The notes under the pieces: model-generated
Told to the model about the DNA's origin: nothing
The model's input: only the letters and a program-made list of their open reading frames with translations
Databases searched by the model: none
Made by a program: the position numbers and the translations under genes
In this document: positions 8,416 through 64,000 of the stretch, piece by piece
How the letters are laid out: every line of letters starts with the position of its first letter
Position numbering within the stretch: position 1 is the stretch's first letter
Assembly: GCF_003258595.1 (NCBI RefSeq)
Contig: NZ_QHHQ01000001.1
Location: 620,001 to 684,000, forward strand
Length of the DNA stretch: 64,000 bases
Source: Acuticoccus sediminis
GTDB taxonomy: Bacteria; Pseudomonadota; Alphaproteobacteria; Rhizobiales; Amorphaceae
Direction of reading: 5' to 3'

Positions 8416-8422
8416 TGGAACC

Positions 8423-13202: not shown

Positions 13203-13212
13203 AAGCCTCTCG

Positions 13213-14662: not shown

Positions 14663-14690
14663 GGCCGGCACACCACCGACCGGACTTCGA

Positions 14691-14723: not shown

Positions 14724-14752
14724 CGTTCAGCCTCGCCCGCCGCCCAAATCGT

Positions 14753-47249: not shown

Positions 47250-47564
47250 ATGCCGAGAACGAGAAGTCCCTACCCGCCGGAGTTTCGAGAACAGATGGTT
47301 GCGTTGGCGCGTGCCGGTCGCAGCGTCGAGGATCTGGCGCGCGAGTTCGAGCCGTGTGCCCACACGATCCACGGCTGGGTTCGTCAGGCCGATCGTGACG
47401 GCGGCAGCCGCAGCGACGGGCTGACGGGCGAGGAGCGCGAGGAGCTTCGGCGCCTTCGCCGCGAGAACCGCCAGCTGAGGCAGGAGAGAGATATCCTCTC
47501 AAAGGCCGCAGCCTGGTTCGCACAGGAGAGCGGCGCGATGCGCTCTCGGTCTTCCGATTCATGA
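47250..47564 (+). CDS. IS3-family transposase OrfA
   Basis: A 104-residue helix-turn-helix protein (PRTRSPYPPEFREQMVALAR, then SVEDLAREFEPCAHTIHGWV) followed by a leucine-zipper-like coiled coil (RRLRRENRQLRQERDILSKA), as in IS3 OrfA. It overlaps orfB in the -1 frame by four bases. It binds the element ends; the frameshift fusion OrfAB would be the active transposase. Confidence 0.92.
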   Translation: MPRTRSPYPPEFREQMVALARAGRSVEDLAREFEPCAHTIHGWVRQADRDGGSRSDGLTGEEREELRRLRRENRQLRQERDILSKAAAWFAQESGAMRSRSSDS

Positions 47565-48133
47565 CTGCGAACCAGGCCGTGTACCCGATCCAGACGATGT
47601 GCCGTGCGTTCGGCGTGTCCCGTGCCGGCTTCTACGCCTGGCGGGATCGAGAGCCCAGCCGGCGGGCGCGCAGCGATGCCGCCCTCGCGGCCCGCATCCG
47701 CACGATCCACAAGGCGTCGAGGGAGAGTTATGGCGCCCCGCGCATCCACGCCGAGCTCAAGGAGGCCGGCGTCGGTGTCGGCCGCAAGCGCATCGCACGG
47801 CTGATGAAGGAGGAGGGCCTTGCCGGCGTCAGCCGCCGAAGAGGAACGCGGACGACGTTCCGCGACGAACGGGTGCGGCCAGCCGCGGACCTCGTCGACC
47901 GGAACTTCCGCGCCGAGGCGCCCGACCGGCTGTGGGTGGCCGACATCACCTACGTCCCGACCTGGGCCGGCTTCCTCTATCTCGCCGTCGTTCTCGACGC
48001 CTTCTCGCGCCGGATCGTCGGCTGGTCCATGGGGCTCGACCTGAAGACCCAGCTCGTCCTCGACGCGTTGAACATGGCGCTGACGCAGAGGCGGCCCACC
48101 GGCGTCATCCATCACTCCGACCAGGGGTCGCAA

Positions 48134-49590
48134 CTTGGTCTCAAACGGTCGTTGCAACGCTCTGCTGAACGAGGTTGCAATGGCAGGAAGGCGGCGCTCG
48201 GAGCGATCGACACGGAAGGCTCTTCGTTCGCCGGGGCGGCCACCGGTTGCGCGGCGGGAGCATCGGCAGGCGTTCTGGTCGGCGATCGCAGGTGGACGTT
48301 CGAGCGAGGACGCCGCCACCGATGCAGGCGTATCCGTTCCGGTGGGAGCCAGGTGGTTCCGGGAGGCCGGCGGCATGCCACCATCGCACTTCGCTTCGTC
48401 GGCAAGACCGCCGTCTGAGCGGTACCTGTCCTTCGCTGAGCGTGAGGAGATCGCGGTGCTGCGCGCAAAGGGGCACGGCGTGCGCGAGATCGCACGGCGC
48501 CTCGGGCGGGCGGCCTCCACGCTCTCGCGCGAGCTGCGGCGTAATTCGGCCACGCGCAGCGGCGGTTTCGAGTATCGGGCGACAACCGCACAGTGGCACG
48601 CCGACCGCGCAGCGCTTCGTCCCAAGCCGGCGAAGCTAGCCACGAACGTGAAGCTGAGGGATTATGTGCAGGAGCGGCTTGCCGGCCGGATCGCCACGCC
48701 AGACGGTAAGAAGGTCGCCGGCCCGAACGTGGCTTGGAAGGGTCGCCGGACCGGGCCGCGGCAGGATCGGCGTTGGGCCCGCGCCTGGAGCCCGGAGCAG
48801 ATCGCGCGCCGTCTGAGGCTCGACTTCCCGCAGGATGAGAGCATGCGCATCAGCCACGAAGCCATCTATCAGTCGCTCTACATCCAAGGGCGGGGCGCGC
48901 TGAAGCGAGAGCTGACCGCCTGCCTTCGAACGGGGCGGGCTCTGCGCATGCCGCGCTCGCGTGTGAGCGGCCGAGGCAAGTCCTTCGTCACGCCCGAGAT
49001 CAGGATCAGCGAGCGCCCGGCCGAAGTTGCCGACCGTGCGGTTCCGGGCCATTGGGAAGGCGATCTGATCATTGGGCTCAACCGTTCAGCGATCGGCACG
49101 CTCGTCGAGCGCACCACGCGCTTTACGATGTTGCTGCACCTGCCGCCTCTTCCCGGGCACCGGGACACGCCGCGAGCAAAGAACGGACCCGCTCTCGCCG
49201 GCCATGGTGCAGAGGCGGTACGCGATGCGATCGCAAGCGCGATGACCACGCTGCCCGAGCAGCTGCGTCGGTCGCTGACTTGGGATCAGGGTGCGGAAAT
49301 GGCGAAACATGCGGAGCTACGCGTGGAGGTCGGACTCGAGGTTTACTTCTGCGATCCTCAAAGCCCTTGGCAACGCGGCAGCAACGAGAACACTAACGGT
49401 CTTCTGCGACAGTATTTCCCAAAGGGCACCGATCTCAGTGTCCATGGCATAGATGAACTCGCAGCAGTCGCCTGCGCCCTCAACAGTCGGCCCCGCAAAA
49501 CCCTCGACTGGAGAACACCCGCTGAGGTCCTCGACCAGCTCCTTCGAGCCGGTCATATTGAAACTGTTGCGACGACCGATTGAGTCCACC
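48134..49590 (+). mobile_element. IS30-family insertion sequence nested in IS3 orfB
   Basis: Imperfect inverted repeats of 23 bases (48136-48158 and 49566-49588, three mismatches) bound one large transposase gene. A 3-bp duplication CAA (48131-48133 and 49591-49593) flanks it. At about 1.46 kb it is longer than classical IS30, as the transposase has an extended N-terminus. Confidence 0.9.
48180..49583 (+). CDS. IS30-family transposase
   Basis: A 467-residue DDE transposase. Residues 1-70 are a basic extension. The IS30 helix-turn-helix is YLSFAEREEIAVLRAKGHGV then REIARRLGRAASTLSRELRR. The catalytic core has Asp in GHWEGDLIIG, Asp in LTWDQGAEMAKH and Glu in RGSNENTNGLLRQYFPKG. The gene is intact, so the element may be active. 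The ATG at 48180 follows a GAGG site. Confidence 0.93.
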   Translation: MAGRRRSERSTRKALRSPGRPPVARREHRQAFWSAIAGGRSSEDAATDAGVSVPVGARWFREAGGMPPSHFASSARPPSERYLSFAEREEIAVLRAKGHGVREIARRLGRAASTLSRELRRNSATRSGGFEYRATTAQWHADRAALRPKPAKLATNVKLRDYVQERLAGRIATPDGKKVAGPNVAWKGRRTGPRQDRRWARAWSPEQIARRLRLDFPQDESMRISHEAIYQSLYIQGRGALKRELTACLRTGRALRMPRSRVSGRGKSFVTPEIRISERPAEVADRAVPGHWEGDLIIGLNRSAIGTLVERTTRFTMLLHLPPLPGHRDTPRAKNGPALAGHGAEAVRDAIASAMTTLPEQLRRSLTWDQGAEMAKHAELRVEVGLEVYFCDPQSPWQRGSNENTNGLLRQYFPKGTDLSVHGIDELAAVACALNSRPRKTLDWRTPAEVLDQLLRAGHIETVATTD

Positions 49591-49910
49591 CAATACACGT
49601 CCGTGGCCTTCGGCCTCAGATGCAAGGAGGCCGGCGTGCGCCCGTCCATGGGGTCGGTCGGCGACGCCTACGACAACGCGATGTGCGAGAGCTTCTTCGC
49701 CACCCTCGAGTGCGAGCTCCTCGACCGGCGCAAGTTCCGCACCAAGGCCGAGGCCAAGATGGCCGTCTTCCAGTTCATCGAGGGCTGGTACAACCCCGGC
49801 CGCCGCCACTCCGCGCTCGCCTACCTGTCGCCCGTCAACTACGAACGTGCCGCAAAGCAGCGGCTACAATCTGTAAGCCCTTAACTGTCCGCCCAACCGG
49901 GGCAACTCCA

Positions 49911-50081
49911 GTCAACAAACACCAAGAGCCGCGCGCCGCCGCGCGAGAGCTGTTGACCGCGGAGGTGCCGGACATGCGCGAGTTCGTTCTCCCAACGGCT
50001 TCATTCTCTGAAGCTGTTGACTACAAGAGCTTAGTCAACAGCATCAAACTGTCCAGAATGTCTGAGGTTTTCGGCGATTGA
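49911..50081 (+). pseudogene. 3' remnant of an unidentified gene cut by the IS3 element
   Basis: From the IS3 junction an open frame of about 56 residues continues to a stop at 50081, including EPRAAARELLTAEVPDMREF and VDYKSLVNSIKLSRMSEVFG. Its start would have lain upstream of the insertion. I do not recognise the family. The following 144 bases to the next IS hold no gene. Confidence 0.35.
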
Positions 50082-50243
50082 TCCGCGGCGGTTCTGTGTG
50101 CTCGAGCGATAAGCGTTCGACGCCCACATCGAATTCAAGGCCGAGCTGCGGTCCAAAATGACCCACTCCGAGGGTGGGTCAGATTTGGAGCGGTGTTGGC
50201 AACTCCGACAACACTCGAGCTTGACTGACCTGCCACTGAACGT

Positions 50244-51170
50244 TCATCCAGCGACGACTGGAGCCTCGATTGTTGATGCGCCATTTGGCTCGGCGTGAGC
50301 AATCGGCGCCGCCGCGGAGCTTTCATCCGGCGGAGCGTCGGTGCCGATTGCGGTGATGGTGGTCGCGAACTGGGCCGGAGTGGCGTAGCCCAAGGCGGAG
50401 TGAGGCCTCTCGGTGTTGTAATCGCTAACCCACTCGGAGATGGCATTGCGGGCGTGATCGAGGCCGAAGAACAGGCTCTCGTTGAGCAGCTCGTCGCGCA
50501 TCCTGCCGTTGAAGCTCTCTATGAAGCCATTCTGCATCGGCTTGCCCGGCGCGATGTAGTGCCAGTCGACCTTGTGATCCTTTGACCATGCTAGGATGGC
50601 GTTCGAGGTGAACTCGGTGCCGTGGTCGGAGACGATGACGCCAGGCTTGCCGCGGCTGGAGATCAGATCCGTGAGCTCGCGCGAGACGCGCCGGCCGGAG
50701 ATCGAGGTGTCCGGGGTCGCCGCCAGGCACTCCCGCGTCACGTCGTCGACGATGTTGAGCACGCGGAAGCGCCGGCCGCAGGCAAACTGGTCGTGGACGA
50801 AGTCGAGCGACCATCGCGCGTTGCGCTTGGCCTCGACCAGGATCGGCGCCCTTGTTCCGACAGCGCGACGCCGGGCGCGGCGCTTGCGGACGGTGAGGCC
50901 TTCCTCGCGATAGACGCGGTAGATTCGGTTGATGCCCGAGGGCTCGCCCTCCCGCCGCAGCAGAATGAACAGCCTTCGGTAGCCGAAGCGACGCCGCTCG
51001 TTGGCGATCTCGCGTAGCCGGCCGCGGAGCTCGGCTTCGTCGGGCCGACGCGACCGGTAGCGGATCATCTTGCGGTCGGCGCCGACGATGAGGCAGGCCC
51101 GACGCTCCGACAGGTTCATCGCGGCCTGCAGGTGAGCGACGGCTTCGCGCTTGGCGGCGGGCCCTACCAT
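50244..51170 (-). CDS. IS3-family transposase OrfB
   Basis: An integrase-core DDE protein of about 308 residues from the in-frame ATG, made mainly as an OrfAB fusion by -1 frameshifting on the A7 run at 51170-51176. Catalytic Asp in [15 protein letters not shown], Asp in [13 protein letters not shown] and Glu in [16 protein letters not shown] are intact. [16 protein letters not shown] is the usual HTH_21 region. The C-terminal 40 residues are an Ala-rich tail longer than usual. Confidence 0.92.
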
Positions 51171-51430
51171 TTTTTTGACAGAAGCTCTCGGAGCGCGGCC
51201 GCATCGAGCATCTGCTCGGCGAGGAGCTTCTTCAGCTTCGTGTTCTCCTCCTCTAGCGCCTTCAGTCGCTTTGCGTCGGACACGTCCATCCCGCCGTACT
51301 TCGACTTCCAATTATACAGCGTCGCCTCGGAGACCCCGTGCTTGCGGGCGAGATCCCCTGTCTTCGCTCCCGCCTCATGCTCGCGCAGAACCGTAATGAT
51401 CTGCTCTTCCGTGAACCGCTTCCGCTTCAT
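51164..51430 (-). CDS. IS3-family transposase OrfA
   Basis: An 88-residue helix-turn-helix/coiled-coil protein ([20 protein letters not shown], then [20 protein letters not shown], then [20 protein letters not shown]), a typical IS407/IS51-group OrfA. It ends LLSKKW at the A7 slippery site, where ribosomes shift into orfB. Confidence 0.93.
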
Positions 51431-51494
51431 CCGTCCGTCCTTCCCTCGGGTCGGACTCTAATCGCTCCTGGAGGAAAAACTCAGTAGCAGGTCA

Positions 51495-51871
51495 TGACGC
51501 TTCTACCGCTATCGCGACGGTTTTGATGTGACCGAGAGCGGTATGCCCTCCACCGTCTTGAGATGGGCAACAAGCGCGAACAGATTATCGGCCCGCGGAT
51601 TGCCTGACGAGGCCAGGATGGGCCGAGGACAACAACAAAATCTATCCCATTCATCGCTCAGAACGCGCTCCGCGCGGGAGTTCATCGGAGCTCAGGCTCA
51701 ATAGCCGGCCTGTCCGGTGAAACGGGGATCATTCCACGCGTTGGCGTGGGCGGCACTGCCGCCCTCATGTCGGCCACCGCACCGTCGCCTAAAATATGGG
51801 CTCGCCTAACTTGACGGCAGAAATTTAATTGCTTTACAAAAGCAATTAACGGAGCACTGCCGGACTTGCTT
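51495..51871. other. intergenic region between the IS element and the ROK regulator
   Basis: About 370 bp without a recognisable gene. The IS-proximal half looks like degraded coding DNA of unknown origin, with no frame I can assign. The ROK-proximal end is AT-rich and carries a perfect palindrome listed separately. Confidence 0.4.
51825..51849 (+). promoter_or_regulatory. perfect inverted repeat, putative ROK operator
   Basis: TTAATTGCTTT and AAAGCAATTAA are perfect 11-base arms around ACA, ending 22 bases before the ROK start. The AT-rich outer parts resemble operators of NagC/Mlc-type ROK repressors. Autoregulation of the ROK-TctCBA operon through it is inference. Confidence 0.65.
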
Positions 51872-53146
51872 ATGCGTGCCATGTCCCCCACCACCACGGT
51901 GCTGCAGGTTCTGTTCACGCAGGGGCCCCTGTCGCGGTCGCAGATCGCTGCCGCCACGGGGCTGAACCCCGCCACTGTGACGCGTCTCACCCAGGCGCTG
52001 ATCGACGAGGGGATGGTCGAGGAAGGGCGGACCCGCGTCGAGGCTCGCCAGCCCGGTCGGCGCGCCATCGAGCTGCATCTGCGCACGGATCGGACCTTCG
52101 TCGCCGGCCTCGTCGTGAACGCCTACGCCCAGACCGTCGCCATCGCCGATATCGTCGGCCGCACCGTCGCAGAGTGCGACGTGCCGCGCCTCGCTGGTGC
52201 GTCCGCCCGTGAGACCTTGATGGCGCTCGCCGCCGCTGCGGTCGACCTTGCCGCCGCCAACGCCGTTCCACGCGAACGTATCGTCGGCACGGGGGTCCTC
52301 GCTGCCGGCCTCGTCACCCAGGACCCCAATGTGGTGCTGAAATCACCCGACATCGGCTGGTTCGACGTCGCCGTCGACGACCCGGTGCGCGCCGTGCTCG
52401 ACGTGCCGGTGGTGCTGGAGACGATGCAGAACGGCCTCAACCTTGCCGAATGCGCTTACGGCCGGGCTGCGGGCACCGCGCACGCGATGCTGGTTTCCGT
52501 GGCGCTTGGTATCGGCAGCAGCCTCATCGTCGATGATCGCCTGATCCGCGGTGCCGGCCAGGCCGCATCCGGCTTCGGCCATATGCCCGTCGCAGGCGCG
52601 GAGAGACCGTGCAACTGCGGCCGGCGCGGCTGCCTCACCACACTGGCCGCCGGGTACGCTGTGCTGTGCAGCCTCGGCCTTGTCGAACCCTACCGCACGG
52701 CGCGCGACCACGATCCGGCTTACGCTCCGCTACTCGCCGATGTCCTCGCGCGTGCCGAGACCGGTGACCCCGACGCCAGCGAAGCACTCGGCGCCGCCGG
52801 CGAGGCGCTCGGCGAGGCGCTGAAGGCCGCGAGCGCGGTCGCCGCGCCCGAAGTCATCATCCTGTCCGGCCCCGTGCCGCGCGCCGCCAGCTATCGCGAG
52901 GGCGTCGAGCGCGGCCTCGCCCCGTCACCTCGCGACCCGTTCGGCTGGGGCGGCCGCCTACTCGTCAGCGACACGCCCCTGGCCTCGGCCGCGGCCCGTC
53001 TGGCGCTGGAGCGCTTCGTCTACGGCCGCATTCCCGAGCTGCCGCCGGCTGCGTCCCGCCACCTCCCCCGCTCTGTCCCGGGCGACCGATCCGCGTCCGG
53101 CCCGAGACGCCCCCCTCGCCCCCTCCGAGAAGGACCGTCCCTATGA
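51872..53146 (+). CDS. ROK-family transcriptional regulator
   Basis: About 424 residues. An N-terminal MarR-like winged helix (VLQVLFTQGPLSRSQIAAAT, then LNPATVTRLTQALIDEGMVE) is followed by a ROK kinase-like domain with the zinc site CNCGRRGCL and the preceding GFGHMPV histidine. The DGxTK-like kinase aspartate motif is not evident, fitting a sensor rather than a kinase. The last 40 residues are disordered and Pro/Arg-rich. The start is uncertain (TTG 51866 or ATG 51881 possible). Its stop overlaps the TctC gene (ATGA), so it likely controls this transporter operon. Confidence 0.88.
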   Translation: MRAMSPTTTVLQVLFTQGPLSRSQIAAATGLNPATVTRLTQALIDEGMVEEGRTRVEARQPGRRAIELHLRTDRTFVAGLVVNAYAQTVAIADIVGRTVAECDVPRLAGASARETLMALAAAAVDLAAANAVPRERIVGTGVLAAGLVTQDPNVVLKSPDIGWFDVAVDDPVRAVLDVPVVLETMQNGLNLAECAYGRAAGTAHAMLVSVALGIGSSLIVDDRLIRGAGQAASGFGHMPVAGAERPCNCGRRGCLTTLAAGYAVLCSLGLVEPYRTARDHDPAYAPLLADVLARAETGDPDASEALGAAGEALGEALKAASAVAAPEVIILSGPVPRAASYREGVERGLAPSPRDPFGWGGRLLVSDTPLASAAARLALERFVYGRIPELPPAASRHLPRSVPGDRSASGPRRPPRPLREGPSL

Positions 53147-54162
53147 TCGTGACAATGCACCATACGGCCGCCCGTCCCCGCCGGCGCCGCAGCGCCCTGG
53201 CCGCAGCCGCGTTCGGTCTCGCGGCCTCAGTGCTCAGCCTCGCGCCCGCAGAGGCGCAGGACTATCCGAATAAGCCTATCCGCCTGATCGTCCCCTACGG
53301 ACCCGGTGGGGCCACCGACCTCGCCGGCCGCGCCCTCGCCGGCGTGCTGCCGGAATTCCTCGGCCAGGCGGTCGTGGTAGTGAACGTGCCGGGAGCGGGT
53401 GGCGCGGTCGGCGCCAACCAGGTGAAGGAGGCCACGCCCGACGGCTACACCATGCTGATGACGGCGATCGGCGCCAACGCCCTGCGCCCGGCGCTCACCA
53501 GCGATCTCCCCTACGAGCCTGGCGACTTCGACTACATCGCCCGCACCCAGATCAACCCAAACGTCCTCGTGGTCCCGGCGAACGCGCCCTACCAGACCTA
53601 CGAGGACTTCGCCGCAGCACTGACGTCGGGCGACAACGACCTCAAGTACGGCACCGCCGGGCCCGGCAACGTCACCCACCTCGGCCCGATCATGCTGATG
53701 AGCGAGCTCGGCCTGCCGAGCGACGCCGCCACACCCGTGCACTACGATTCCGACGGCGCGGCGCTGCTCGCCATGCTCCAGGGCGAGGTGGATTTCGCCC
53801 AGGGCAACCTCGCCTCGTTCGCCTCCGCGCTGCAGAACGGGGCCATCAAGGGCCTCGCGATGACCACGCCCGAGCCGGTCGAGGGGTTCGAGGACATCCC
53901 GACCTACACCTCGCTCGGCCTGCCCGAGGTCTCGATCGTCGGCTGGCGCGGGGTCGCCGGTCCCCCGGGGCTGCCCGAGGAGGTCGAGACGGCCTGGGGC
54001 GATGCGGTCGCCAAGGCGGTGGAGTCGCCGTCCTGGATCGGCCTCATCCGAAAGCTGGGTGACGAGCCGGGCTACCTCGCCAAGGCCGACTACGACGCCT
54101 TCGTCGAGAAGGACGCCTCGCGCTACCGTGCGATGGCCGAGGACCTCGGCCTGCGCAAGTAG
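53143..54162 (+). CDS. tripartite tricarboxylate transporter substrate-binding protein (TctC/Bug)
   Basis: A 339-residue periplasmic solute receptor. The signal peptide has a twin-arginine-like basic start (RRRR) and is cleaved near APAEAQ (residue 39). The Bug-family fold is shown by YPNKPIRLIVPYGPGGATD, VVVVNVPGAGGAVGANQV and TPDGYTMLM. The two beta-strand loops that hold a ligand carboxylate are in place. It delivers a carboxylate to TctBA. GAAGGA upstream of the ATG supports the start. It overlaps the ROK gene by four bases. Confidence 0.92.
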   Translation: MIVTMHHTAARPRRRRSALAAAAFGLAASVLSLAPAEAQDYPNKPIRLIVPYGPGGATDLAGRALAGVLPEFLGQAVVVVNVPGAGGAVGANQVKEATPDGYTMLMTAIGANALRPALTSDLPYEPGDFDYIARTQINPNVLVVPANAPYQTYEDFAAALTSGDNDLKYGTAGPGNVTHLGPIMLMSELGLPSDAATPVHYDSDGAALLAMLQGEVDFAQGNLASFASALQNGAIKGLAMTTPEPVEGFEDIPTYTSLGLPEVSIVGWRGVAGPPGLPEEVETAWGDAVAKAVESPSWIGLIRKLGDEPGYLAKADYDAFVEKDASRYRAMAEDLGLRK

Positions 54163-54319
54163 CGCCCAACGCGCCGCGCGGTGCCGGAGCCAGTCAGGGC
54201 TTCGGCATCATCGGCGAACCCGCCGACCGCGATCCCACCTCCGGCGCGCCGTGTCCAATACGACCCGACGCCCGGGATGACGCGCACCCGATCAACCCTG
54301 CGGATCCCCCGAGACGACC

Positions 54320-54889
54320 ATGCCACTCGACGCTCCGTCCCCCGCATCACCATCTGCCACGCGTCCCGCCAAGGCCCTGCTGCGTGGGCTGGCGCTGCCG
54401 ATCGCCGTTCTGGCCTTCGCTGCGCTCCTCGTCCTGTGGCTGATCCCGGCCGAGGTGCCGGCGGCCGATCCCGGCGGTCGTGGTCTCGGAGGTCGCTTCT
54501 TCCCCACGCTGATCGCTGCCGTCCTCGCCGCCCTCGCCCTTGCTCAGATCGGTCTCGTCCTCAGCGGCGGCCAGAGCACGGCACCCGCCACGGCTGCTGG
54601 CGATGACAATCCCGCAAGCGATGAGGGCGCGGACGAGGACACTCCGCTCGACCCGCGCACCCTCCTCGCCGCCGCAGGGCTGTTCGTCTACGCCGCGCTC
54701 GTCCCGGTCGTCGGCATGCTGCCGGCGACCTTCCTCGCGGTCGTCGCCTACATGCGCGCGCTGCACGTCGGGGCGTGGTGGAAGGCGGCGCTGTTTGCGC
54801 TGGCATTCGTTGCCGTCGTCGCCGGCTTCTTCGAAGGGGTCGCCGCCGTCCCCCTGCCGCGCGGCCTCCTCGGTGCCGCGCTCGGCTGA
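54320..54889 (+). CDS. tripartite tricarboxylate transporter small membrane subunit (TctB)
   Basis: A 189-residue protein with four hydrophobic helices, split two-plus-two by an acidic loop (residues about 92-115, rich in Asp/Glu). The pattern GGRFFPTLIAAVLAALALAQ after the first helix is typical of TctB. It lies 157 bases after TctC and 46 before TctA. Confidence 0.85.
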   Translation: MPLDAPSPASPSATRPAKALLRGLALPIAVLAFAALLVLWLIPAEVPAADPGGRGLGGRFFPTLIAAVLAALALAQIGLVLSGGQSTAPATAAGDDNPASDEGADEDTPLDPRTLLAAAGLFVYAALVPVVGMLPATFLAVVAYMRALHVGAWWKAALFALAFVAVVAGFFEGVAAVPLPRGLLGAALG

Positions 54890-54935
54890 GCCGCCCCCTG
54901 CGCCTTTCCGCAACCCGCTCCATGAGGACTGTCCC

Positions 54936-56519
54936 ATGCAGACCGTGATCGCGTTCTTCGTGGCGATGCCGGACTATTTCGGCGCCATCGCCTCCGGCCT
55001 CGCGGGCGGAGCGACGCTGTTCTTTACGCTAGATAATATCGTCGCCGTGTTCGCCGGGGTCGCGGTCGGCTGCCTGTTCGGCGCGCTGCCGGGTCTCAGC
55101 ATCACCCTGTCGGTGGCTCTCGTCATGCCCTTCACTTTCGGCATGGATCCCCTGACCGGCCTCTCCCTCCTCGTCGCCGTCTACGTCGGCGCGATCTACG
55201 GCGGCTCGATCTCGGCGATCCTGTTCAACACACCCGGGACCCCGGCCGCCGCCTGCACCACGATCGACGGTCACGCCCTCGCCCGCCAGGGCAAGGCAGG
55301 TAAGGCGTTGCACCTTGCCAACTGGGCTTCCATGGTGGGCGACCTCACGAGCACCGTCCTCGTCATCCTCCTCTTCCCGCTGCTCGCCCAGCTGGCGATC
55401 ATGTTCCGCTCACCGGAATACTTCGCGCTCATCGTCTTCGCGGTGACCGTGGTCGGCGGCGTCGCCGGCAAGTCGCTGGTGCTGGGGCTGATCTCCGGCG
55501 CGCTAGGCTTCTTGTTTGCCACCGTCGGCATGGATCCGGTCGAGGGCACCGGCCGGTTCGACTTCGGCTCGCTGGAGCTCCTGAAGGGGCTCGCATTCGT
55601 GCCGCTCCTCATCGGCCTGTTCGCGATCCCGGAGTTCCTGCGCCAGATCGACCGCGCCGGCCGCGCCGCGCGTCCGGTGCGCATCTCCCAGGTGGACGCC
55701 GTGCCGGATGGCGACCGCCTCACCTTCGCCGAGTTCCGCTACTGCTTCCGCCACATGGTCCGCGGCGGCATCATCGGCCTTGTCATGGGGGTGATTCCGG
55801 GCCTCGGCGCCACGCCCGCCGCCTTCGTCTCCTACGACCGGGCCCGGCGCACCGCGAGGAAGCCGCACCTGTTCGGCCGCGGCTCGCTGGAGGGGATCGC
55901 CGCCGCGGAGGCCGGCAACAACGGCGTCAACGGCGCCACCCTCGCGCCGCTTCTCACCCTCGGCATCCCTGGCGACGTGGTGACGGCAGTGATGCTCGGG
56001 GCGCTGATGATCTTCAACCTTCAGCCGGGACCGATGCTGTTCATCACCCACGCCGACATCGTTTACGGCCTGTTCTGCGCGCTCCTGTTCTGCGACGTGG
56101 CGCTGCGCGTCGTCGGCGTCGCCTTCATCCATGTCGGCAAGCACGTCACGCGGGTTCCGACGGGTTACGTGTTTCCGGCGATCCTCGGCCTGTGCGTGGT
56201 CGGCGCCTACAGCATCAACAATTCGATGTTCGACGTGTGGGTGATGATGGCGTTCGGCGTCGGCGGCCTGCTGATGCAGAAGGTGGGCCTGCCGACGGTG
56301 CCCTTCCTCATCGCCTTCGTGCTGGGGCCGATGCTCGAGAAGGGGCTGCGCCGGTCCCTCGTCATCTCCGACGGGGATCCAATGATCCTCGTTCAAAGCC
56401 CGATCGCGCTGGTCTTCTACGCCCTCACAGTCATTGCCGTGATCGCCATCGTGCGCGGCCGCCTCACCCCGCCGGTCGCCCCCCCGCCGGCCGGCGAGCC
56501 GCCGCTCCCCGCGCGCTGA
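54936..56519 (+). CDS. tripartite tricarboxylate transporter large membrane subunit (TctA)
   Basis: A 527-residue permease with about 11-12 helices. Family signatures are FGALPGLSITLSVALVMPFT, then YGGSISAILFNTPGTPAAA with IDGHALARQGKAGKAL, and in the second half GVIPGLGATPAAFVSY and EAGNNGVNGATLAPLLTLGI. It moves the carboxylate across the inner membrane using the ion gradient. GAGG eight bases before ATG 54936 fixes the start; the longer open frame is antisense-biased sequence. Confidence 0.93.
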   Translation: MQTVIAFFVAMPDYFGAIASGLAGGATLFFTLDNIVAVFAGVAVGCLFGALPGLSITLSVALVMPFTFGMDPLTGLSLLVAVYVGAIYGGSISAILFNTPGTPAAACTTIDGHALARQGKAGKALHLANWASMVGDLTSTVLVILLFPLLAQLAIMFRSPEYFALIVFAVTVVGGVAGKSLVLGLISGALGFLFATVGMDPVEGTGRFDFGSLELLKGLAFVPLLIGLFAIPEFLRQIDRAGRAARPVRISQVDAVPDGDRLTFAEFRYCFRHMVRGGIIGLVMGVIPGLGATPAAFVSYDRARRTARKPHLFGRGSLEGIAAAEAGNNGVNGATLAPLLTLGIPGDVVTAVMLGALMIFNLQPGPMLFITHADIVYGLFCALLFCDVALRVVGVAFIHVGKHVTRVPTGYVFPAILGLCVVGAYSINNSMFDVWVMMAFGVGGLLMQKVGLPTVPFLIAFVLGPMLEKGLRRSLVISDGDPMILVQSPIALVFYALTVIAVIAIVRGRLTPPVAPPPAGEPPLPAR

Positions 56520-56584
56520 CGTCGCCCTGCGCCACCGCCCACACTCTCCGGCCGCCCGCGCCGACTTTACGAAAGGACCGACCC

Positions 56585-58534
56585 ATGAACGCTGAGGACG
56601 GCGCGCTGTTTCGCTTCGCCATCGTCTCCGACACCCACATCCGCCCGAAGGAGAGCGACCAGTCCTCGCCCTGGATCGTCAACACCTACGCCAACGGGCG
56701 CGCCCGGCGGCTGGTGTCGCTCCTGCGTGCGCAAGCGCCCGAGTTCGTCATCCACCTCGGCGACATGGTCCACCCGCTGCCCTCGCTGCCCTCCTACGGT
56801 GACGCCGTCGCCGAGGCGAAGCGGATCTTCTCGCCGCTCGAGGCGCCGATGTACCTGATCCCCGGTAATCACGACGTCGGCGACAAGCCGATGCCGGGGA
56901 TGCCCGCCGCCCCCGCCACCGCCGAGGACGTCGCCAAATACCGCGAGGCGTTCGGGCCCGACTGGCAGGTGTTCGAGCACGGCGGCTGCCGCTTCGTGCT
57001 GCTCGACGCGGCGGTCATCAACACCGGCCTCGAAGCCGAGGCCGAGCAGCGCGCCTTCGCCGAGGCAACGCTTTCGGCCCCGTTCGACGGACGCACGCTC
57101 GTGTTCATCCACTACCCGCCCTTCATCCTCGCCCCAGACGAGCCGTCCAACTACGACAACCTCGACGAACCGGGCCGCAGCTGGCTCGTCGATCTCCTGA
57201 AGCGCACCGGAGTCAGCGCGGTGTTCTCCGGTCACGTCCACAACTTCTTCTACAATCGGCTCGAGGGGATGGAGCTTTACGTACTGCCCGCCCTTTCGTT
57301 CGTGCGGCAGGACTATTCCGAACTCTTCCGTGGCGGCCCGGGCCCCGAGTTCGGCCGCGACGACGCCGACAAGCTCGGCTTCGTGGTTGTCGACGTCTAC
57401 CCCGACCGGATCGTGCCGCGCCTGGTGCGCACCTTCGGGGACCAGGACGAGGAGGGCGCGCCTGTCCCGGCCCTGCCGCCGCTGCCGGCGACGCCGACCC
57501 CCTCCGCCCCGCTCGGCCTCCACCTCAGGGACGATTGGCGGGAGGTCGTGACGATGCCCTACCAAGGCTCGATGGACGAGTTCCTTCGCAAGGAGGCGCG
57601 CAACGACTATCACCTCCTCGCCCTGATGGAGCTCGGCACGCGTCATCTCAGGATCCCGCTGCGCGACCTGACCCTGCCGTCCTTCCGCGACCGCGCGGCC
57701 GACTTCGCTCACCTCGGCTTCACCTTCACGGTGTTCCACTTCGGCCTGCCGGGGGCGGCGGAGCTCGCCGCGGTGGAGGCCAACGCGGCGCTGATCGAGA
57801 CCTTCGAGGTGGTGATCCCCTGGGCCGAGCGGGACGCCTTCGCCACCGCCGCGCCGGGATGGCGGCTCCCCGTGCCGGTATCGCTGACGCGGGTCGCGAG
57901 TTCGGCCGACCGCAAGGCCGCCGGCAGCACCTTCCATCACTACGTCAGCTACGGCTTCGCGCCCGAGGCATGGGACGAGGTGGCGTCCTTCGCGCGAGGG
58001 CTCGGCGGCGCCGTCGCCTCGCTCGCCTTCACGCTGGGCTGGGAGGTCGCGCTGGCCGAAACGGTCCCCGATCTTGCCGCCAAGGCCGAGGCGCTTGGCT
58101 TGTCGCTGGTGGCGAACGTGCGCCTGCAGTCGGAAAACCCTGCCGAAGCGGCGGACGACCAAGCGGCGATCGCCGCACGCGTCGCGGAAGCGATGGTGGT
58201 CGCACACGCGGTCCCGTCGGCGCAGCTCTTCCTCGACACGTTCATCGACCACGACCGTGGCTACTTCCCACGCGGCGGGCTCTACGATCGCCGGCTCAAC
58301 CCCAACCCGGCCGCCAAGGTCTATCGTCACCTCGACGCGACGCTTGCCGGGCATGCCGTCGCACTCGCCGCGCCTGCGATCGCCAAGGGGCTCGCCTTCA
58401 CCCTGGATGGCCGTCCGGCCAGCCTTGCCACCGCGCCCTGCACGGCGGCGGCAACCGGCCGCGTGATCGATCTCGTCACGGGCTTGACCCCGGAGAGGGC
58501 AACGTCGGCAGGGCCGCTGCTCGTTCTTCCATAG
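56585..58534 (+). CDS. metallophosphoesterase with an extra C-terminal domain
   Basis: A 649-residue cytoplasmic protein. Residues 8-290 are a calcineurin-like phosphoesterase with all metal motifs: SDTHI (Asp16, His18), HLGDMVH (Asp60), PGNHD (94-97), FIHYPP and GHVH. Residues about 325-645 form a second domain of alternating strands and helices (for example HLRIPLRDLTLPSFRD, then FTFTVFHFGLPGAAEL, then AQLFLDTFIDHDRGYFPRGG) that looks barrel-like; I do not recognise the family. It follows TctA by 65 bases, suggesting it acts on the imported compound or a derivative, perhaps a phosphodiester. Confidence 0.8.
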   Translation: MNAEDGALFRFAIVSDTHIRPKESDQSSPWIVNTYANGRARRLVSLLRAQAPEFVIHLGDMVHPLPSLPSYGDAVAEAKRIFSPLEAPMYLIPGNHDVGDKPMPGMPAAPATAEDVAKYREAFGPDWQVFEHGGCRFVLLDAAVINTGLEAEAEQRAFAEATLSAPFDGRTLVFIHYPPFILAPDEPSNYDNLDEPGRSWLVDLLKRTGVSAVFSGHVHNFFYNRLEGMELYVLPALSFVRQDYSELFRGGPGPEFGRDDADKLGFVVVDVYPDRIVPRLVRTFGDQDEEGAPVPALPPLPATPTPSAPLGLHLRDDWREVVTMPYQGSMDEFLRKEARNDYHLLALMELGTRHLRIPLRDLTLPSFRDRAADFAHLGFTFTVFHFGLPGAAELAAVEANAALIETFEVVIPWAERDAFATAAPGWRLPVPVSLTRVASSADRKAAGSTFHHYVSYGFAPEAWDEVASFARGLGGAVASLAFTLGWEVALAETVPDLAAKAEALGLSLVANVRLQSENPAEAADDQAAIAARVAEAMVVAHAVPSAQLFLDTFIDHDRGYFPRGGLYDRRLNPNPAAKVYRHLDATLAGHAVALAAPAIAKGLAFTLDGRPASLATAPCTAAATGRVIDLVTGLTPERATSAGPLLVLP

Positions 58535-58940
58535 GGGCGCCGAGACTGCACGCGCGGTCCGCGGCGCGTGCGCTTAAGCAGCGCGAGGCGCGATAACACC
58601 TTAAGAGATCACCCACGAGAGCTCACTATGGGTCGTTTTCGCGAATGCCGAACGTCCGCTTCGAACGACCCTGACCTGCGCCACCTGCGGCCGGAACTGG
58701 CACGGTTTGGATCGGCATAACGGAGCCAGACCGTCACGGGCCGGTCAGCTGCGAGCGTAACGGATGGTGTCGACTCGGAGGACCGCCGGGTCCCGATTGT
58801 GGAGGCCGGTCAACGCAACGGCATCTCGCCAGGATCCACCCGGTCCGGGCGAGAGGACGTTCCTCACGCAATCGCACGGACCCCCACACTCTGCGCTGAT
58901 GCTCTCTCGCGGTGCGCCCGCGTAGTGGAACGGGGGGACG
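58535..58940. other. 406-bp gap between convergent transporter operons
   Basis: It contains a hairpin near the plus-strand side (listed separately) and no open frame with coding character or recognisable family on either strand. No terminator with a T-run was found for the aconitase gene. Confidence 0.5.
58548..58571 (+). terminator. GC-rich stem-loop after the metallophosphoesterase gene
   Basis: Perfect 8-base arms GCACGCGC (58548-58555) and GCGCGTGC (58564-58571) with an eight-base loop start 13 bases after the stop codon. No T-run follows, so it is at best a weak or factor-assisted terminator. Confidence 0.5.
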
Positions 58941-61538
58941 TCAGCGTGCATCCTCTTGCCGCGCAAGGGTATCGGCGACGATGGAAGGGAGCACACCGCC
59001 GCGGCGCAGGAGCTCGGCCTCCTGAAGGGTCTCGACGGCGGCGCGGCAGCGGATCTGTGCGTGCGTGCCGTCAGGGCAGCGTCGCTCGACGGTGATCTCG
59101 ATTCGCGGTGAGAGCACATCGGCCGGGGCCGCGATATGGAAGCGATCGCCGGGGCCGATGCCGGCGGCATTCGGCACGAAGCCGTCCGCGATGACTATGG
59201 GCAGCACGCCCATGCCGATGAGATTGGTCCGATGGATGCGCTCGAAGCTCCGCGCGATCACCGCGCGCACGCCGAGGAGGGCCACGCCCTTGGCGGCCCA
59301 GTCGCGGCTTGACCCCATGCCGTAGCGCTCACCGGCGAGCAGGACGACGGCGCGACCGGCCACCGCGAGCCGTTCGGCGGCCTCGAAGTGCGGGAGCTGA
59401 CTGCCGTCTTCGAGCACGGTGAACGACGGCGGCAGGTCGTCCGCCAGGTAGTTCTTCGCCAGACGATTGGTGAATAGGCCACGCAGCATGACCTCCCAGT
59501 TGCCGCGGTAGGCGGCATAGACGTTGAGATCGCGCGGATCGCCGCCGCGCTCGATGAGCCAGCGACCGGCCCGGCTCTTCGGATCGATCCAGCCTGCCGG
59601 TGAAATGTGGTCGGTCGTCATGTCGTCGCCGAGCACCATCAGCGCCTGCGCGTCGTAGCGGCCGAGGCGCGTCTCGCTGGGGCCGGCGAATTTCGGCCGG
59701 CGCAGGTTGCGCGAGGCGGGGTCCCACGGAAAGCGCGGCGATCGCGGGGCGGGGATCGCCTGCCACGGGGCGCTTGCGGCCGCGGCGGCGAAATCGGCCG
59801 GCACGTCGGCGGCGCGAAAGCCGGCCGCCATCGCGGCGTCGATCTCGCCCGGCGTCGGCCAGAGGTCGCGCAGACGCACGGGGGCGCCCGATGGGTCTTG
59901 CCCGAGCGGGTCGTCGAGGATGTCGCCGTGGATCGTGCCCCGGATGGCGTAGGCGATCACGAGCGGCGGCGATGCGAGGAAGCCGAGGTCGAGCTTCGGG
60001 TGGACGCGGCCGGGAAAATTGCGGTTGCCGGAGAGGACCGCGGCGACGGCGCGCCCGTTCGCGAGCGCCTCCTCGATGATGTCCGGCAGCGGACCGGAGT
60101 TGCCGATGCAGGTGGTGCAGCCGAAGCCGACGATCTCGAAGCCGAGCGCGGCGAGGTCGTCAGCGAGGTCGGCCCGGTCGAGCAGGCTGCGGGCCGAGGG
60201 CGAGCCCGGCGCGAGGGATGTCTTCACCCAGGGCGCCGCGGAAAGGCCCCGCGCCCGCGCGTTTCGGGCCAGAAGGCCGGCGGCGATCAGCAGGCGCGGG
60301 TCCGAGGTGTTGGTGCAACTCGTGATCGCGGCAATGCCGACCGCGCCGTCGGGCACCTCTCCCGCCGCGGCAGGCGCGAGGGGGCGGCCGATGGCGGCCT
60401 CGACCGATGCGGCCGCCTCGGCGGGCACGATGCGGTCCTGCGGCCGCCGCGGGCCGGCGAGGAGCGGGCCGAGGGCGGACAGGTCGATCGTGATCTCGCG
60501 GTCGAAGCGCGGGTGGGCGTCCGGCTCGAACCATAGCCCCATCGCGCGAAGGACCGGTTCGACCGCATCGGTCAAGGCCGGCGGCCGGCCGGTGCGGACG
60601 AGGTAGGCGACGGTTTCGCCGTCGACCGGGAAGAAGCCGGTGGAGGCGCCGTATTCCGGCGCCATGTTGGCGACGACCGCCCGTTCGTCGGCCGACAATG
60701 TCGCGACGCCAGGGCCGAAGAATTCGACGAAGTCGCCGGTCACACCGAGAACGCGAAGGCGGTGCGTGACCTCGAGCGCGAGGTCGGTGGCGAGCGCGCC
60801 CGGCCGGAGCGCGCCCGTCAGGCGGACGCCGACGACTGACGGCATCGCGAGTGAGGCGGGTTGGCCGAACATCACGCTCTCCGCCTCCAGCCCGCCGACT
60901 CCCCAGGCGAGGACGCCGATGCCGTTCACCATCGGCGTATGGCTGTCGGTTCCGAGCAACATGTCGGGATGGGCCGTGCCGTCGGGGGTGAGCACGACGA
61001 CGGTCGCCAGCTGCTCGAGGTTGAGGGTGTGCATGATCCCGGTGCCGGGCGGGTTCACGTGGACGCCGGAGAGACTTTGGGAGGCCCACTTCATGAACGC
61101 ATACCGCTCGGTGTTGCGGGCGATTTCGTTGTCCATATTGGTCGCGGCCGCGCCCGGCACGGCGTGGCGGTCGACGGCGACGGAGTGGTCCACCGACACC
61201 TCCACCGGCAGCTGCGGGGCCAGCGTTGCCGGGTCGCCGCCGGCCTCGGCGACCGTGTCCCTGAGGCCGGCGATGTCGGCAAGGGCCGGGGTGCAGGTGG
61301 TATCGTGCATCAAGAGGCGGTTGGGGCGGAAGACGAGCTCGAAGTCGTCCTTGTGCCCCGCGAGCCAGGCATCCAGCGCGGCCAGCAGCGGGTCGGCGTC
61401 ACGGGTGCTGCGGACATGGTTCTCGGCAAGGAGACGCACGACATGCGGCAGGCGCTGCAGCCGCGCGCCGAGGAGGACGCGCAGGTCAATCGCCCGGACG
61501 GACGAGGGACCGAACTGGACAGTGGTCTCCGACATCAT
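58941..61538 (-). CDS. acnA: aconitase-family hydratase (AcnA-like)
   Basis: An 865-residue hydro-lyase with a [4Fe-4S] cluster held by Cys408 (ITSCTNTSDP), Cys474 and Cys477 (GFGCTTCIGNSG). The swivelling C-terminal domain has GDDMTTDHISPAG and the active-site serine loop YGMGSSRDWAAKG. At the position where housekeeping AcnA reads DFTGVPA, this protein has HDTTCTPALADI, so it is a divergent paralogue. It could isomerise citrate or hydrate a related tricarboxylate. It is 58 bases downstream of TctA in a transporter operon. Confidence 0.85.
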   Translation of the reverse strand: MMSETTVQFGPSSVRAIDLRVLLGARLQRLPHVVRLLAENHVRSTRDADPLLAALDAWLAGHKDDFELVFRPNRLLMHDTTCTPALADIAGLRDTVAEAGGDPATLAPQLPVEVSVDHSVAVDRHAVPGAAATNMDNEIARNTERYAFMKWASQSLSGVHVNPPGTGIMHTLNLEQLATVVVLTPDGTAHPDMLLGTDSHTPMVNGIGVLAWGVGGLEAESVMFGQPASLAMPSVVGVRLTGALRPGALATDLALEVTHRLRVLGVTGDFVEFFGPGVATLSADERAVVANMAPEYGASTGFFPVDGETVAYLVRTGRPPALTDAVEPVLRAMGLWFEPDAHPRFDREITIDLSALGPLLAGPRRPQDRIVPAEAAASVEAAIGRPLAPAAAGEVPDGAVGIAAITSCTNTSDPRLLIAAGLLARNARARGLSAAPWVKTSLAPGSPSARSLLDRADLADDLAALGFEIVGFGCTTCIGNSGPLPDIIEEALANGRAVAAVLSGNRNFPGRVHPKLDLGFLASPPLVIAYAIRGTIHGDILDDPLGQDPSGAPVRLRDLWPTPGEIDAAMAAGFRAADVPADFAAAAASAPWQAIPAPRSPRFPWDPASRNLRRPKFAGPSETRLGRYDAQALMVLGDDMTTDHISPAGWIDPKSRAGRWLIERGGDPRDLNVYAAYRGNWEVMLRGLFTNRLAKNYLADDLPPSFTVLEDGSQLPHFEAAERLAVAGRAVVLLAGERYGMGSSRDWAAKGVALLGVRAVIARSFERIHRTNLIGMGVLPIVIADGFVPNAAGIGPGDRFHIAAPADVLSPRIEITVERRCPDGTHAQIRCRAAVETLQEAELLRRGGVLPSIVADTLARQEDAR

Positions 61539-61596
61539 GATCTGCGGTGGTGCTCCTCGATGCGGTGGCGGGACGCTGCGCCCCGGTCGTTGTCAA

Positions 61597-63138
61597 TCAG
61601 TCGCCCGTGGCGACCTCATCGGCTGGTCGGTTGGCCTCGATGCGCGCCCTCATGCGCCGGCCGAGGACGATCGGCAGCACGAAGCCGGTGATCGCGATGA
61701 TCCACAGGATGATCGCAAGGGGGCTGCCGACGAGGATCGACCAGTCGCCGTCCGAGATCTGGAGCGCGCGGCGAAGGTTCACCTCCATCTCGTTGCCGAG
61801 CAGGATGCCGAGGATCACCGGCACGAGCGGCACTTCGAGCTTCCTCAATACCCAGCCGAGGATGCCGAAGCCGACCATCAGCATCACGTCGAAGGTCGAT
61901 CCGGTGATGCCGTAGATGCCGACGAAGGAGATCATCGCGACGACCGGCATCAGGATCCGCGTCGGCACGAGAAGAACGCGCGTGAAGAGGCCGACGAGGG
62001 GAATATTCAGCGTCAACAGCATGAGGTTGCCGATGAACAGCGCCGCGATGAGCCCCCACACGACGTCCGGATTGCGCTGGAACAACAGCGGCCCGGGCGT
62101 GATGTTGAGCTGCAGCAGCACGGCGAGGAGCACTGCGGTGGTGCCCGACCCCGGCACGCCGAGCGACAGCATCGGCACCAGCGCGCCGCCGGCGGCGGCA
62201 TTGTTGCCGACCTCGGGCGCGACAACGCCGCGCGGATCGCCTTTGCCGAAGCTATCGCCGGCCCGGTCGACCGTCGCCTTCTCAAGCGAGTAGGACAGGA
62301 ACGACCCGAGCGAGGCGCCCGCCCCCGGCAGCACCCCGGCGAGGAAGCCGATGACGGTCGAGCGCCCCATGGTTGGGATGCACCGCTTCAGGACGTTCCA
62401 GCTCGGCAGCAGGCGGCCGATCTTCGCGCCCGAGTGGCCGGCGGCGCCGCCGCGGTGATGCTCGAGGAAGACGAACACCTCCGACAGCGCGAACAGCCCG
62501 ACGATCGCGATCAGGAAGTCGATCCCGTCGTAGAGGTGGATCTCGCCGAAGGTGAAGCGTTCCGATCCGGTCTGCGAGTCGGAGCCGATCATCGCGACGC
62601 CAAGCCCCAGTGCCGCGGCAAAGGCGGACTTCGCCTGGTTGGACGAGGAGATCCCGCCGAGCGTCGCGAAGGCGAGTGTGAAGAGGACGAAGTATTCCGC
62701 CGGTCCGAACAGGAGCGCGATCTTGACGAGCTGCGGTGCCAGGAGGACGAGCCCGCAGGTGGCAAAGAAGGAGCCGACGAACGAGGCAATCCCCGACAGC
62801 GCGAGCGCCTCGCCGGCCCGCCCCTGCCGTGCCATCGGGTAGCCGTCGAGGCAGGTCATCATCGCCGGCTCGTCGCCGGGGATGTTGAGGAGGATCGAGG
62901 AGATCCGCCCGCCATACATGCAGCCGTAGTAGACGCTCGTCAGCAAGATGAGCGCGGGCGTTGGACCGAGCCCCAGCGAGAAGGCGATCGGAATGAGGAC
63001 GGCCACACCATTGGCGGGACCGAGCCCCGGCAATGCGCCCATCATCGTGCCGAGGAAGCAGCCGAGGAAAGCGAGCAGGAGGTTCTGGGCGGAGAGGGCG
63101 ACGGCGAACCCGTCGGCGAGCGACGACAAGGTTTCCAT
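61597..63138 (-). CDS. tripartite tricarboxylate transporter large membrane subunit (TctA)
   Basis: A 513-residue permease of the second transporter set. Signatures are GTMMGALPGLGPANGVAVLI, YYGCMYGGRISSILLNIPGD, DGYPMARQGRAGEAL, and in the second half FLAGVLPGAGASLGSFLSY with EVGNNAAAGGALVPMLSLGV. About 11 helices are visible. It starts three bases after the TctB stop, so the two are co-translated. Confidence 0.94.
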   Translation of the reverse strand: METLSSLADGFAVALSAQNLLLAFLGCFLGTMMGALPGLGPANGVAVLIPIAFSLGLGPTPALILLTSVYYGCMYGGRISSILLNIPGDEPAMMTCLDGYPMARQGRAGEALALSGIASFVGSFFATCGLVLLAPQLVKIALLFGPAEYFVLFTLAFATLGGISSSNQAKSAFAAALGLGVAMIGSDSQTGSERFTFGEIHLYDGIDFLIAIVGLFALSEVFVFLEHHRGGAAGHSGAKIGRLLPSWNVLKRCIPTMGRSTVIGFLAGVLPGAGASLGSFLSYSLEKATVDRAGDSFGKGDPRGVVAPEVGNNAAAGGALVPMLSLGVPGSGTTAVLLAVLLQLNITPGPLLFQRNPDVVWGLIAALFIGNLMLLTLNIPLVGLFTRVLLVPTRILMPVVAMISFVGIYGITGSTFDVMLMVGFGILGWVLRKLEVPLVPVILGILLGNEMEVNLRRALQISDGDWSILVGSPLAIILWIIAITGFVLPIVLGRRMRARIEANRPADEVATGD

Positions 63139-63141
63139 GGG

Positions 63142-63573
63142 TCAATAGCCGAATGGGCCGCGCGCCAGCGACAGGCCTAGAATGAGATGAAAGACGACGT
63201 AGATGCCACCCGAGGTCAGAACGCCGGTCGTGAGCGCGCCAAGGGGGCGCGAGCCGAGCCGCCACGTCAGGTAGGCGGTCGCGAACACCGTGCCGATCAG
63301 GAAGCCGACCTTCGGCAGCGTCCATGCGTAGAGGAACATCACGGCGGCCGCGAAGGCGAGCTCGACGAGGTCGCGCAGGCCGGGCCATTTCGGTTCCGGG
63401 TCGGGCCGCAGGATGAATACGGCCGACGTGATCGCGAGCACCGCCCCGACGATGTACGGGAAGGTGCGCGGGCCGACGACGTCGACCATGAAGCTGTCGG
63501 GAATGATCCACGCCGCCCAGAGATAGAACGCGGCGAGCAGCAGGCCGATGCAGCCGAAGATCCGGTCACTCAT
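63142..63573 (-). CDS. tripartite tricarboxylate transporter small membrane subunit (TctB)
   Basis: A 143-residue protein with four hydrophobic helices and the TctB start MSDRIFGCIGLLLAAFYLWA, then VGPRTFPYIVGAVLAITSA. GAGGA six bases upstream fixes the ATG at 63573; the frame is open a little further 5' without a site. It lies between TctC and TctA. Confidence 0.88.
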   Translation of the reverse strand: MSDRIFGCIGLLLAAFYLWAAWIIPDSFMVDVVGPRTFPYIVGAVLAITSAVFILRPDPEPKWPGLRDLVELAFAAAVMFLYAWTLPKVGFLIGTVFATAYLTWRLGSRPLGALTTGVLTSGGIYVVFHLILGLSLARGPFGY

Positions 63574-63632
63574 GCGATGTCCTCGCGCAAGCGCGGCGGG
63601 AGGCTGCCCGGCGTCGGGCAGCCTCGCAACCG

Positions 63633-64000
63633 TCACTGCAGGATGCCGAGCTCTTTCGACATGGTCTCGACGTCGGCGATGTTCTTCTTGACGAACGCCT
63701 GCATGTCGTCGCCGAAGTTGTTGAACTGCTCGATGGAGGCATCGTCCAACGCCTGCTGGAACTCTGGCGACTCGGTCATCTTCTGGATGGCGTCGCTCCA
63801 GAATGCCTTTGCCGCGTCGGACGCGCCGGCGGGCATGTAGAGGCCGCGCCAGTTCAGGCCATCGACGTCGTAGCCCTGCTCGACGGCGGTCGGAATGTCC
63901 GGAAATGCCTTGAGGCGCTTCGGCCCGAGCACCGCCAGGACGCGCACGTCACCGGACTCGTAGAAGCCGCGCACCTCGGAGAAGTCGCCGGAGAAGACCT
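63633..64000 (-). CDS. tripartite tricarboxylate transporter substrate-binding protein (TctC/Bug), partial
   Basis: Only the C-terminal part (about 122 residues) is in the window; the 5' end lies beyond position 64000. The segment FSEVRGFYESGDVRVLAVLG, then FPDIPTAVEQGYDVDGLNW and RGLYMPAGASD, matches the second lobe of Bug receptors. It is the first known gene of the minus-strand TctC-TctB-TctA-aconitase set. Confidence 0.88.
   Translation of the reverse strand, partial: VFSGDFSEVRGFYESGDVRVLAVLGPKRLKAFPDIPTAVEQGYDVDGLNWRGLYMPAGASDAAKAFWSDAIQKMTESPEFQQALDDASIEQFNNFGDDMQAFVKKNIADVETMSKELGILQ

Follow-up and report, generated by a model that had tools for sequence, protein, structure and literature searches.

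The window, the whole 64,000-nucleotide stretch of DNA that was analysed, carries an operon in which, by Pfam assignment, a ROK regulator, TctC, TctB and TctA precede a metallophosphoesterase-barrel fusion gene, all in one direction (Table 1), in keeping with the earlier note's placement of this gene in a transporter operon. The ROK/NagC-type regulator and tctC share 4 bp, and a gap of 65 bp separates tctA from the fusion gene. Consensus searches over positions 51300-58950 returned no promoters or terminators, and no neighbour gene within the window's operon names a phosphodiester product.

Table 1. Coordinates of the fusion gene, its domains and the upstream genes of the operon, in window positions
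Feature	Position	Strand	Basis
Metallophosphoesterase-barrel fusion gene	56585..58534	+	Open frame, 649 aa
N-terminal calcineurin-type phosphoesterase domain (predicted), residues 1-285	56585..57439	+	PF00149, conservation, GpdQ structural match
(beta/alpha)8 barrel domain (predicted), residues 306-592, clan GH-A type fold	57500..58360	+	Predicted structure, conservation
C-terminal beta tail (predicted), residues 593-649, poorly conserved	58361..58531	+	Alignment, predicted structure
tctA, large membrane subunit, tripartite tricarboxylate transporter	54930..56519	+	PF01970, E 1.5e-142
tctB, small membrane subunit	54320..54889	+	PF07331, E 3.8e-16
tctC, solute-binding protein	53143..54162	+	PF03401, E 1.5e-42
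ROK/NagC-type regulator	51866..53146	+	PF00480, E 1.7e-29, and N-terminal winged-helix matches

The longest open reading of the fusion frame begins at a GTG at 56192, within tctA. Judged from the sequence, translation more probably starts at the ATG at 56585, because a purine-rich gaaagga lies immediately 5' of it and the alignments of relatives begin mostly at residues 1-9. Directly 5' of the ROK gene, at about 47561-51311, several frames resemble IS transposases by eye, so the operon may adjoin mobile elements. An aconitase of AcnA kind (PRK12881, 1084 bits, cut-off 905) and a probable second TctA frame, recognised by eye and by BLAST matches in common with TctA, converge on the operon, and a frame weakly resembling TctC (26%) lies beyond the window end (window 58941-63138, minus strand, and L091:634-1668 for this set).

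The N-terminal part of the fusion protein matches PF00149 (Metallophos) at residues 9-220 with an E value of 1.1e-15 and 59 bits against a cut-off of 21.5. Along the 649-aa protein, Pfam returns nothing past residue 229, and NCBIfam returns only matches far below cut-off, all in the N-terminal part. Calcineurin-type metal sites follow the motif DxH...GDxx...GNHD...H...GHxH. An alignment of 31 rows, composed of the window protein, 29 of the 32 loci from a peptide-pattern scan (without L037, L046 and L053) and L009, reveals that D16, H18, D60, N95, H176, H217 and H219 are invariant in all rows and that H96 is kept in 30. With this conservation the residue set of a calcineurin-type metal site is complete, as the earlier note had claimed for the N-terminal half, and phosphoesterase function is predicted. 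K101, N146, Q155, E186, Y190, D191, R198, R241 and K263 are further invariant residues of the fusion family.

AlphaFold2 models the whole protein with a mean pLDDT of 88.0 and a pTM of 0.90. Its N-terminal domain finds the best structural match in the PDB in GpdQ of Enterobacter aerogenes (2dxl, 2zo9, 3d03), with Z 26.0 over 233 residues at 2.8 A, followed by Rv0805 (Z 23.9), a zebrafish dimetal phosphatase and purple acid phosphatases. GpdQ likewise heads the Foldseek ranking and a PDB search with the single sequence (E 2.3e-6); a family profile places purple acid phosphatases first and GpdQ next. The two proteins share the calcineurin-type metal domain but are only 23% identical, and the GpdQ chains, at 271-274 residues, have no barrel. 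Assignment to the CpdA/SpdA cyclic-nucleotide phosphodiesterase equivalogs was rejected (CpdA, 19.7 vs 225 bits; SpdA, 28.4 vs 400 bits for the closest relative, L022).

The second domain, composed of the barrel and the beta tail, spans about residues 306-649. The earlier note could not assign it, and it remains without a family here: neither Pfam nor NCBIfam matches the C-terminal part of the window protein, and a profile of it finds nothing among PDB sequences at E values up to 10. Scanned singly against Pfam, the C-terminal parts of 31 members give only five single-member matches, at E 0.04-0.12, and none matches a known non-enzymatic family. Identity with a known family was rejected, as there is no credible Pfam match and no PDB sequence match to E 10.

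Folded alone with 31 aligned sequences, the C-terminal domain reaches a pLDDT of 88.1 and a pTM of 0.88. In this model it is a (beta/alpha)8 barrel followed by a beta tail and is nearest to clan GH-A type glycosidases, so that the alpha/beta barrel guessed earlier from the sequence is borne out by AlphaFold2 and the fold search. All 50 entries listed by VIA-align for the barrel are glycoside hydrolases (Z 16.8-22.9), the families of which are presumably mainly clan GH-A. The Bacteroides GH39 enzyme 5jvk aligns at Z 22.9 over 301 residues at 3.3 A with 12% identity, PslG (5bx9, 4zn2, 9g17) at Z 20.6, GH51 arabinofuranosidases at Z about 18-19, beta-glucuronidase/heparanase at about 18, and GH30 and GH10 at about 17. 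Foldseek places PslG first (E 2.5e-9), and the fold match to glycosidases is not exclusive because its hits include non-glycosidase barrels, namely Sul3 (E 5.4e-4) and, more weakly, homocitrate synthase, dihydropteroate synthase and others. An hhalign comparison of the barrel with five proteins matching the GH39 model gave a probability of 0.2%, a weak test since the shallow alignment holds five rows only, two of them sharing 18-19% identity with the first, with no positive control between GH-A families.

Clan GH-A enzymes carry two catalytic glutamates, the acid/base where strand 4 ends and the nucleophile where strand 7 ends. Within strand limits taken from the AlphaFold2 model, the strand 4 end of the fusion barrel is acidic in none of the 31 rows at positions 409-412, in five at 413, eight at 414 and 17 at 415; E408 is kept in 30 rows but lies mid-strand. 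The strand 7 end is likewise acidic in no row at 510-515, in two at 516, 15 at 517 and eight at 518. The fusion barrel resembles the GH39, PslG, GH51, beta-glucuronidase/heparanase and GH30 enzymes in its predicted (beta/alpha)8 fold with a beta domain, but differs from them where strands 4 and 7 end, as no acidic residue is conserved there. On this ground assignment as a canonical GH-A glycosidase was rejected; the modelled barrel is glycosidase-like in fold and is not a canonical GH-A enzyme.

Conservation in the barrel is concentrated elsewhere. The invariant residues include R335, K336, R339, D341, R356, D361, R370 and R558, and R, K or D occupy nine of thirteen such positions. Conserved polar residues, each shared by 29 or more of the 31 rows, sit at or just after three strands: R335, K336, R339 and D341 at strand 1 and its end, R356 and D361 at strand 2 and its end, and D551, D557, R558, Y560 and D568 after strand 8. 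In barrels of this kind the active face usually lies near these positions; that face, like the pocket discussed below, is derived here from strand ends and conservation. In PLC-like/GDPD barrel phosphodiesterases, catalytic histidines are conserved at strands 1 and 2; no histidine occurs among the C-domain polar positions kept in at least 26 of 31 rows. The barrel is less conserved than the N-terminal domain, with a mean majority frequency of 0.49 vs 0.60 and 13 vs 32 invariant positions, and the last 57 residues (593-649) are poorly conserved and missing in several shorter relatives.

The peptide-pattern scan of the genome collection yielded 32 loci, 31 of which cover most of the fusion protein. 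The relatives belong to Alpha- and Gammaproteobacteria, Verticiella and Candidimonas (both of which we take to be Betaproteobacteria), Streptomyces, Nocardioides, Agromyces, Chloroflexota and others, and large plasmids of Variovorax and Cupriavidus carry the fusion as well. The Cupriavidus plasmid copy adjoins IS21 and IS91 genes. The closest relative, from Afifella, is 62% identical and has the same gene order of ROK, TctC, TctB, TctA and fusion gene. With the window genome included in each count, a profile of the C-terminal domain has matches in eight of 385 genomes of the class and in two of 398 genomes of a phylum sample, and a two-domain match is present in three of eight genomes of the window's own genus; in one family, six of 11 genomes match, all within a single genus. 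By sequence, the fusion is thus a rare, patchy and genuine protein family, scattered sparsely over Pseudomonadota, Actinomycetota and Chloroflexota.

The two domains were found together throughout. A set of 49 loci was assembled from the window, 31 of the 32 pattern-scan loci (L053, a cut fragment, was dropped) and 17 others, with the duplicates L062, L063 and L065 dropped. In all 49, matches to the N- and C-terminal parts lie in the same frame and at most 600 bases apart, so that the C-terminal part, whose absence from homologues had been considered, is present in every case. A free-standing C-terminal domain was rejected, since each of the 49 loci tested carries the N-terminal domain in frame. 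Matches to the C-domain profile sit in open frames of at least 682 residues. Among 61 genomes, no match to the N-terminal domain alone comes near the fused ones, the best being 34% identical over residues 9-220 in a 282-aa frame. L012 (G003:C1:422465-422971), from the window's genus, has a 643-aa frame with a weak match to the N-terminal domain only (35%, E 1.5e-12), which may be a different phosphoesterase fusion.

The earlier note had suggested a survey for the same fusion next to Tct genes, and the association proved recurrent. With the window TctA and TctC as queries, a Tct homologue is present on either strand at 23 of 49 family loci vs 1 of 20 control loci, and a sulfatase akin to the neighbour sulfatases at 16 of 49 vs 1 of 20; the 49 loci are not independent, because six come from one genus and all six have both Tct and sulfatase. 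Counting this genus once gives 18/44 for Tct and 11/44 for the sulfatase. The controls are other metallophosphoesterase genes (matches to the N-terminal domain only), three of them shortened by contig ends, and mean locus size is 15.2 kb for the family vs 15.7 kb for the controls. A single control locus, L126, accounts for both the Tct and the sulfatase match. Neither gene was found at 20 of the 49 family loci, in some owing to short contigs, and the neighbour counts are lowered because several contigs are short.

Other genes were found at fewer loci. ROK regulators are present at nine of 49 family loci, TauD-type dioxygenases at five, DUF3604 at four, LamB/YcsF at three, and a short-chain fatty acid (SCFA) transporter with a phosphotriesterase-family protein at two, each vs none of the 20 controls; SDR-type genes occur at 13/49 vs 1/20, and a PbfA-like match at 1/49 vs 1/20, the control match scoring only 145 bits. 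Pfam or NCBIfam was run on neighbour proteins selected by hand from the surroundings of the loci. Frames chosen by length may be spurious, and two likely antisense frames of 864 aa were left out. In Streptomyces and Agromyces (L027:8341-10915 and L045:10001-12430), the fusion gene is followed by the short-chain fatty acid transporter and the phosphotriesterase-family protein, unlike the Tct context. In the Cupriavidus plasmid and genome G740, TctC and a SulP-type anion transporter follow the fusion gene, the G740 transporter scoring 312.8 bits on the sulP model (cut-off 380). At L042, two copies of the fusion gene (7971-9989 and 13060-15171) flank polyamine-type ABC transporter genes in the same direction. 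On taurine, polyamine and phosphonate models the tested ABC components score unevenly, some above and some below cut-off, so that the neighbouring transporters point to no single substrate, and a substrate reading from them was rejected.

The neighbour sulfatases that were tested resemble choline-sulfatase. TIGR03417 is the top NCBIfam match of all five scored, three lying above its cut-off of 433 (552-590 bits) and two below (268 and 282), and the nearest PDB sequences of both sulfatases tested are solved choline-sulfatases. The CxPxR motif is kept in 12 of 13 sulfatase ORFs examined. The reference sequences for the locus counts were drawn from the family loci themselves, and a further sulfatase at L048, found by Pfam, stands outside the count. 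The likeness to choline-sulfatase BetC belongs to these neighbours in relatives, not to the fusion protein, and the surroundings of the window gene (48585-64000) hold no such sulfatase. The neighbour sulfatases may have another substrate, because the window genome's own BetC is located elsewhere and scores 843.9 bits.

One genome, G436 (L074, L107, L108), places the fusion gene beside genes of aminophosphonate breakdown. Next after the fusion gene come PbfA and an FAD oxidoreductase; the latter matches the aminophosphonate oxidoreductase model weakly (120.5 bits, cut-off 632.8) and is closer to the L-pipecolate oxidase model (146 bits, cut-off 600). Upstream, on the other strand, lie phnC (313 bits vs cut-off 266) and a phosphonate-associated Fe-ADH (458 bits vs cut-off 424), with phosphonoacetate hydrolase-like and aldehyde dehydrogenase-like frames farther out by eye. 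The other side carries TctA and, by eye, TctC, a DUF3604 relative, two sulfatases and an aminotransferase. The words phosphoesterase, phosphodiesterase, calcineurin and sulfatase do not occur in the phosphonate papers searched for them.

We propose that the fusion protein is a binuclear-metal phosphodiesterase of the GpdQ/purple-acid-phosphatase kind with a role in nutrition, probably cytoplasmic since no signal peptide is apparent by eye; this reading, in which the barrel would provide a substrate pocket, could equally well prove right or wrong. The Tct transporter, or another importer in relatives, would bring in a small anionic ester, and the N-terminal domain would hydrolyse the P-O bond of this phosphodiester or phosphonate monoester, probably one of a head-group-like amine or of a sugar or glycerol. 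The charged pocket of the barrel (R339, D341, R356, D361, D551 and R558) would bind the organic part and set specificity. Tct systems are best known for carboxylates, which counts against phosphoester import. The substrate may also vary between members or be no phosphoester, because the neighbour systems vary and include Tct, the SCFA transporter, polyamine-type ABC, TRAP, LamB/YcsF and sulfatase. CpdB and UshA are periplasmic or wall-bound enzymes with a second domain that is nucleotidase-type, not a GH-A barrel. In these two-domain nucleotidases a metallophosphoesterase domain is described as preceding another domain, which determines specificity (PMC7922932, PMC10454023), the arrangement proposed here for the fusion protein.

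The earlier note went further and suggested a two-step enzyme acting on an imported phosphodiester or a lipid head group. The fused two-domain architecture on which that idea drew is present, while the two-step function is unproven; with neither catalytic glutamate of clan GH-A conserved, any second reaction would have to take place at another site. A bifunctional enzyme in which the barrel's own site, at the ends of strands 1, 2 and 8, acts on the product of the phosphoesterase strikes us as rather unlikely. The preponderance of R, K or D among the invariant barrel positions, near the usual catalytic face, argues for such a site, and the absence of any solved sequence relative of the barrel leaves room for one of an unknown kind. 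The lack of conserved GH-A glutamates, the lower conservation of the barrel relative to the N-terminal domain and its constant company with the phosphoesterase domain, in all 49 loci, argue against it. The first two of these observations, together with the absence of the beta tail from several shorter relatives, would also suit a barrel that is a dead structural or oligomerisation module of glycosidase origin attached to an ordinary phosphodiesterase of broad specificity. We regard this as improbable: scaffolding alone hardly explains strictly conserved charged residues at three barrel strands, and the best match to an N-terminal domain alone among the 61 genomes falls below the fused ones.

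A class III cyclic-nucleotide phosphodiesterase serving signalling rather than nutrition appears very improbable. The N-terminal domain does resemble Rv0805 and, weakly, the CpdA and SpdA models, but the scores on both models are far below the cut-offs given above, and the neighbours are catabolic and transporter genes. The GpdQ-like nutritional diesterase is the likeliest of these readings. The choline-sulfatase-like enzymes, the TauD-type dioxygenases and, once, the aminophosphonate genes are parts of the context that would fit the putative phosphodiester or lipid head-group substrate raised in the earlier note. A more specific version, inspired by the single example of the G436 locus, is in our view doubtful: a glycosidase-derived barrel and a phosphodiesterase would together release amine head groups (choline-like, aminoethylphosphonate or hydroxy-aminoethylphosphonate) as a single enzyme. 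Its imported substrates would be phosphate or phosphonate esters linked to sugar or glycerol, with the sugar recognised by the barrel, and the reaction would be the missing first step that leads into the known phosphonate (PbfA) and sulfonate/sulfate-ester pathways.

Membership of the phosphoesterase superfamily is known ground; the joining of a calcineurin-type phosphoesterase to an unmodelled domain of GH-A fold is new, and searches of an open-access library turned up no title or abstract opening that describes a metallophosphoesterase-barrel fusion. Nearly half of the protein is a domain without a Pfam or NCBIfam model, fused to a phosphoesterase at every locus examined, and the neighbourhood links the family to Tct transporters, choline-sulfatase-like enzymes and, once, aminophosphonate breakdown. 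To our knowledge, the substrates of Tct transporters are mostly unknown. Finding the substrate of the fusion protein would tell what one group of Tct binding proteins binds, and it might reveal how complex phosphate or phosphonate esters enter catabolism. At L028, L032, L033 and L037, a DUF3604 protein adjoins the sulfatase and the fusion gene, with a TauD-type dioxygenase nearby in two of the four, and this protein is possibly a further enzyme of the same pathway.
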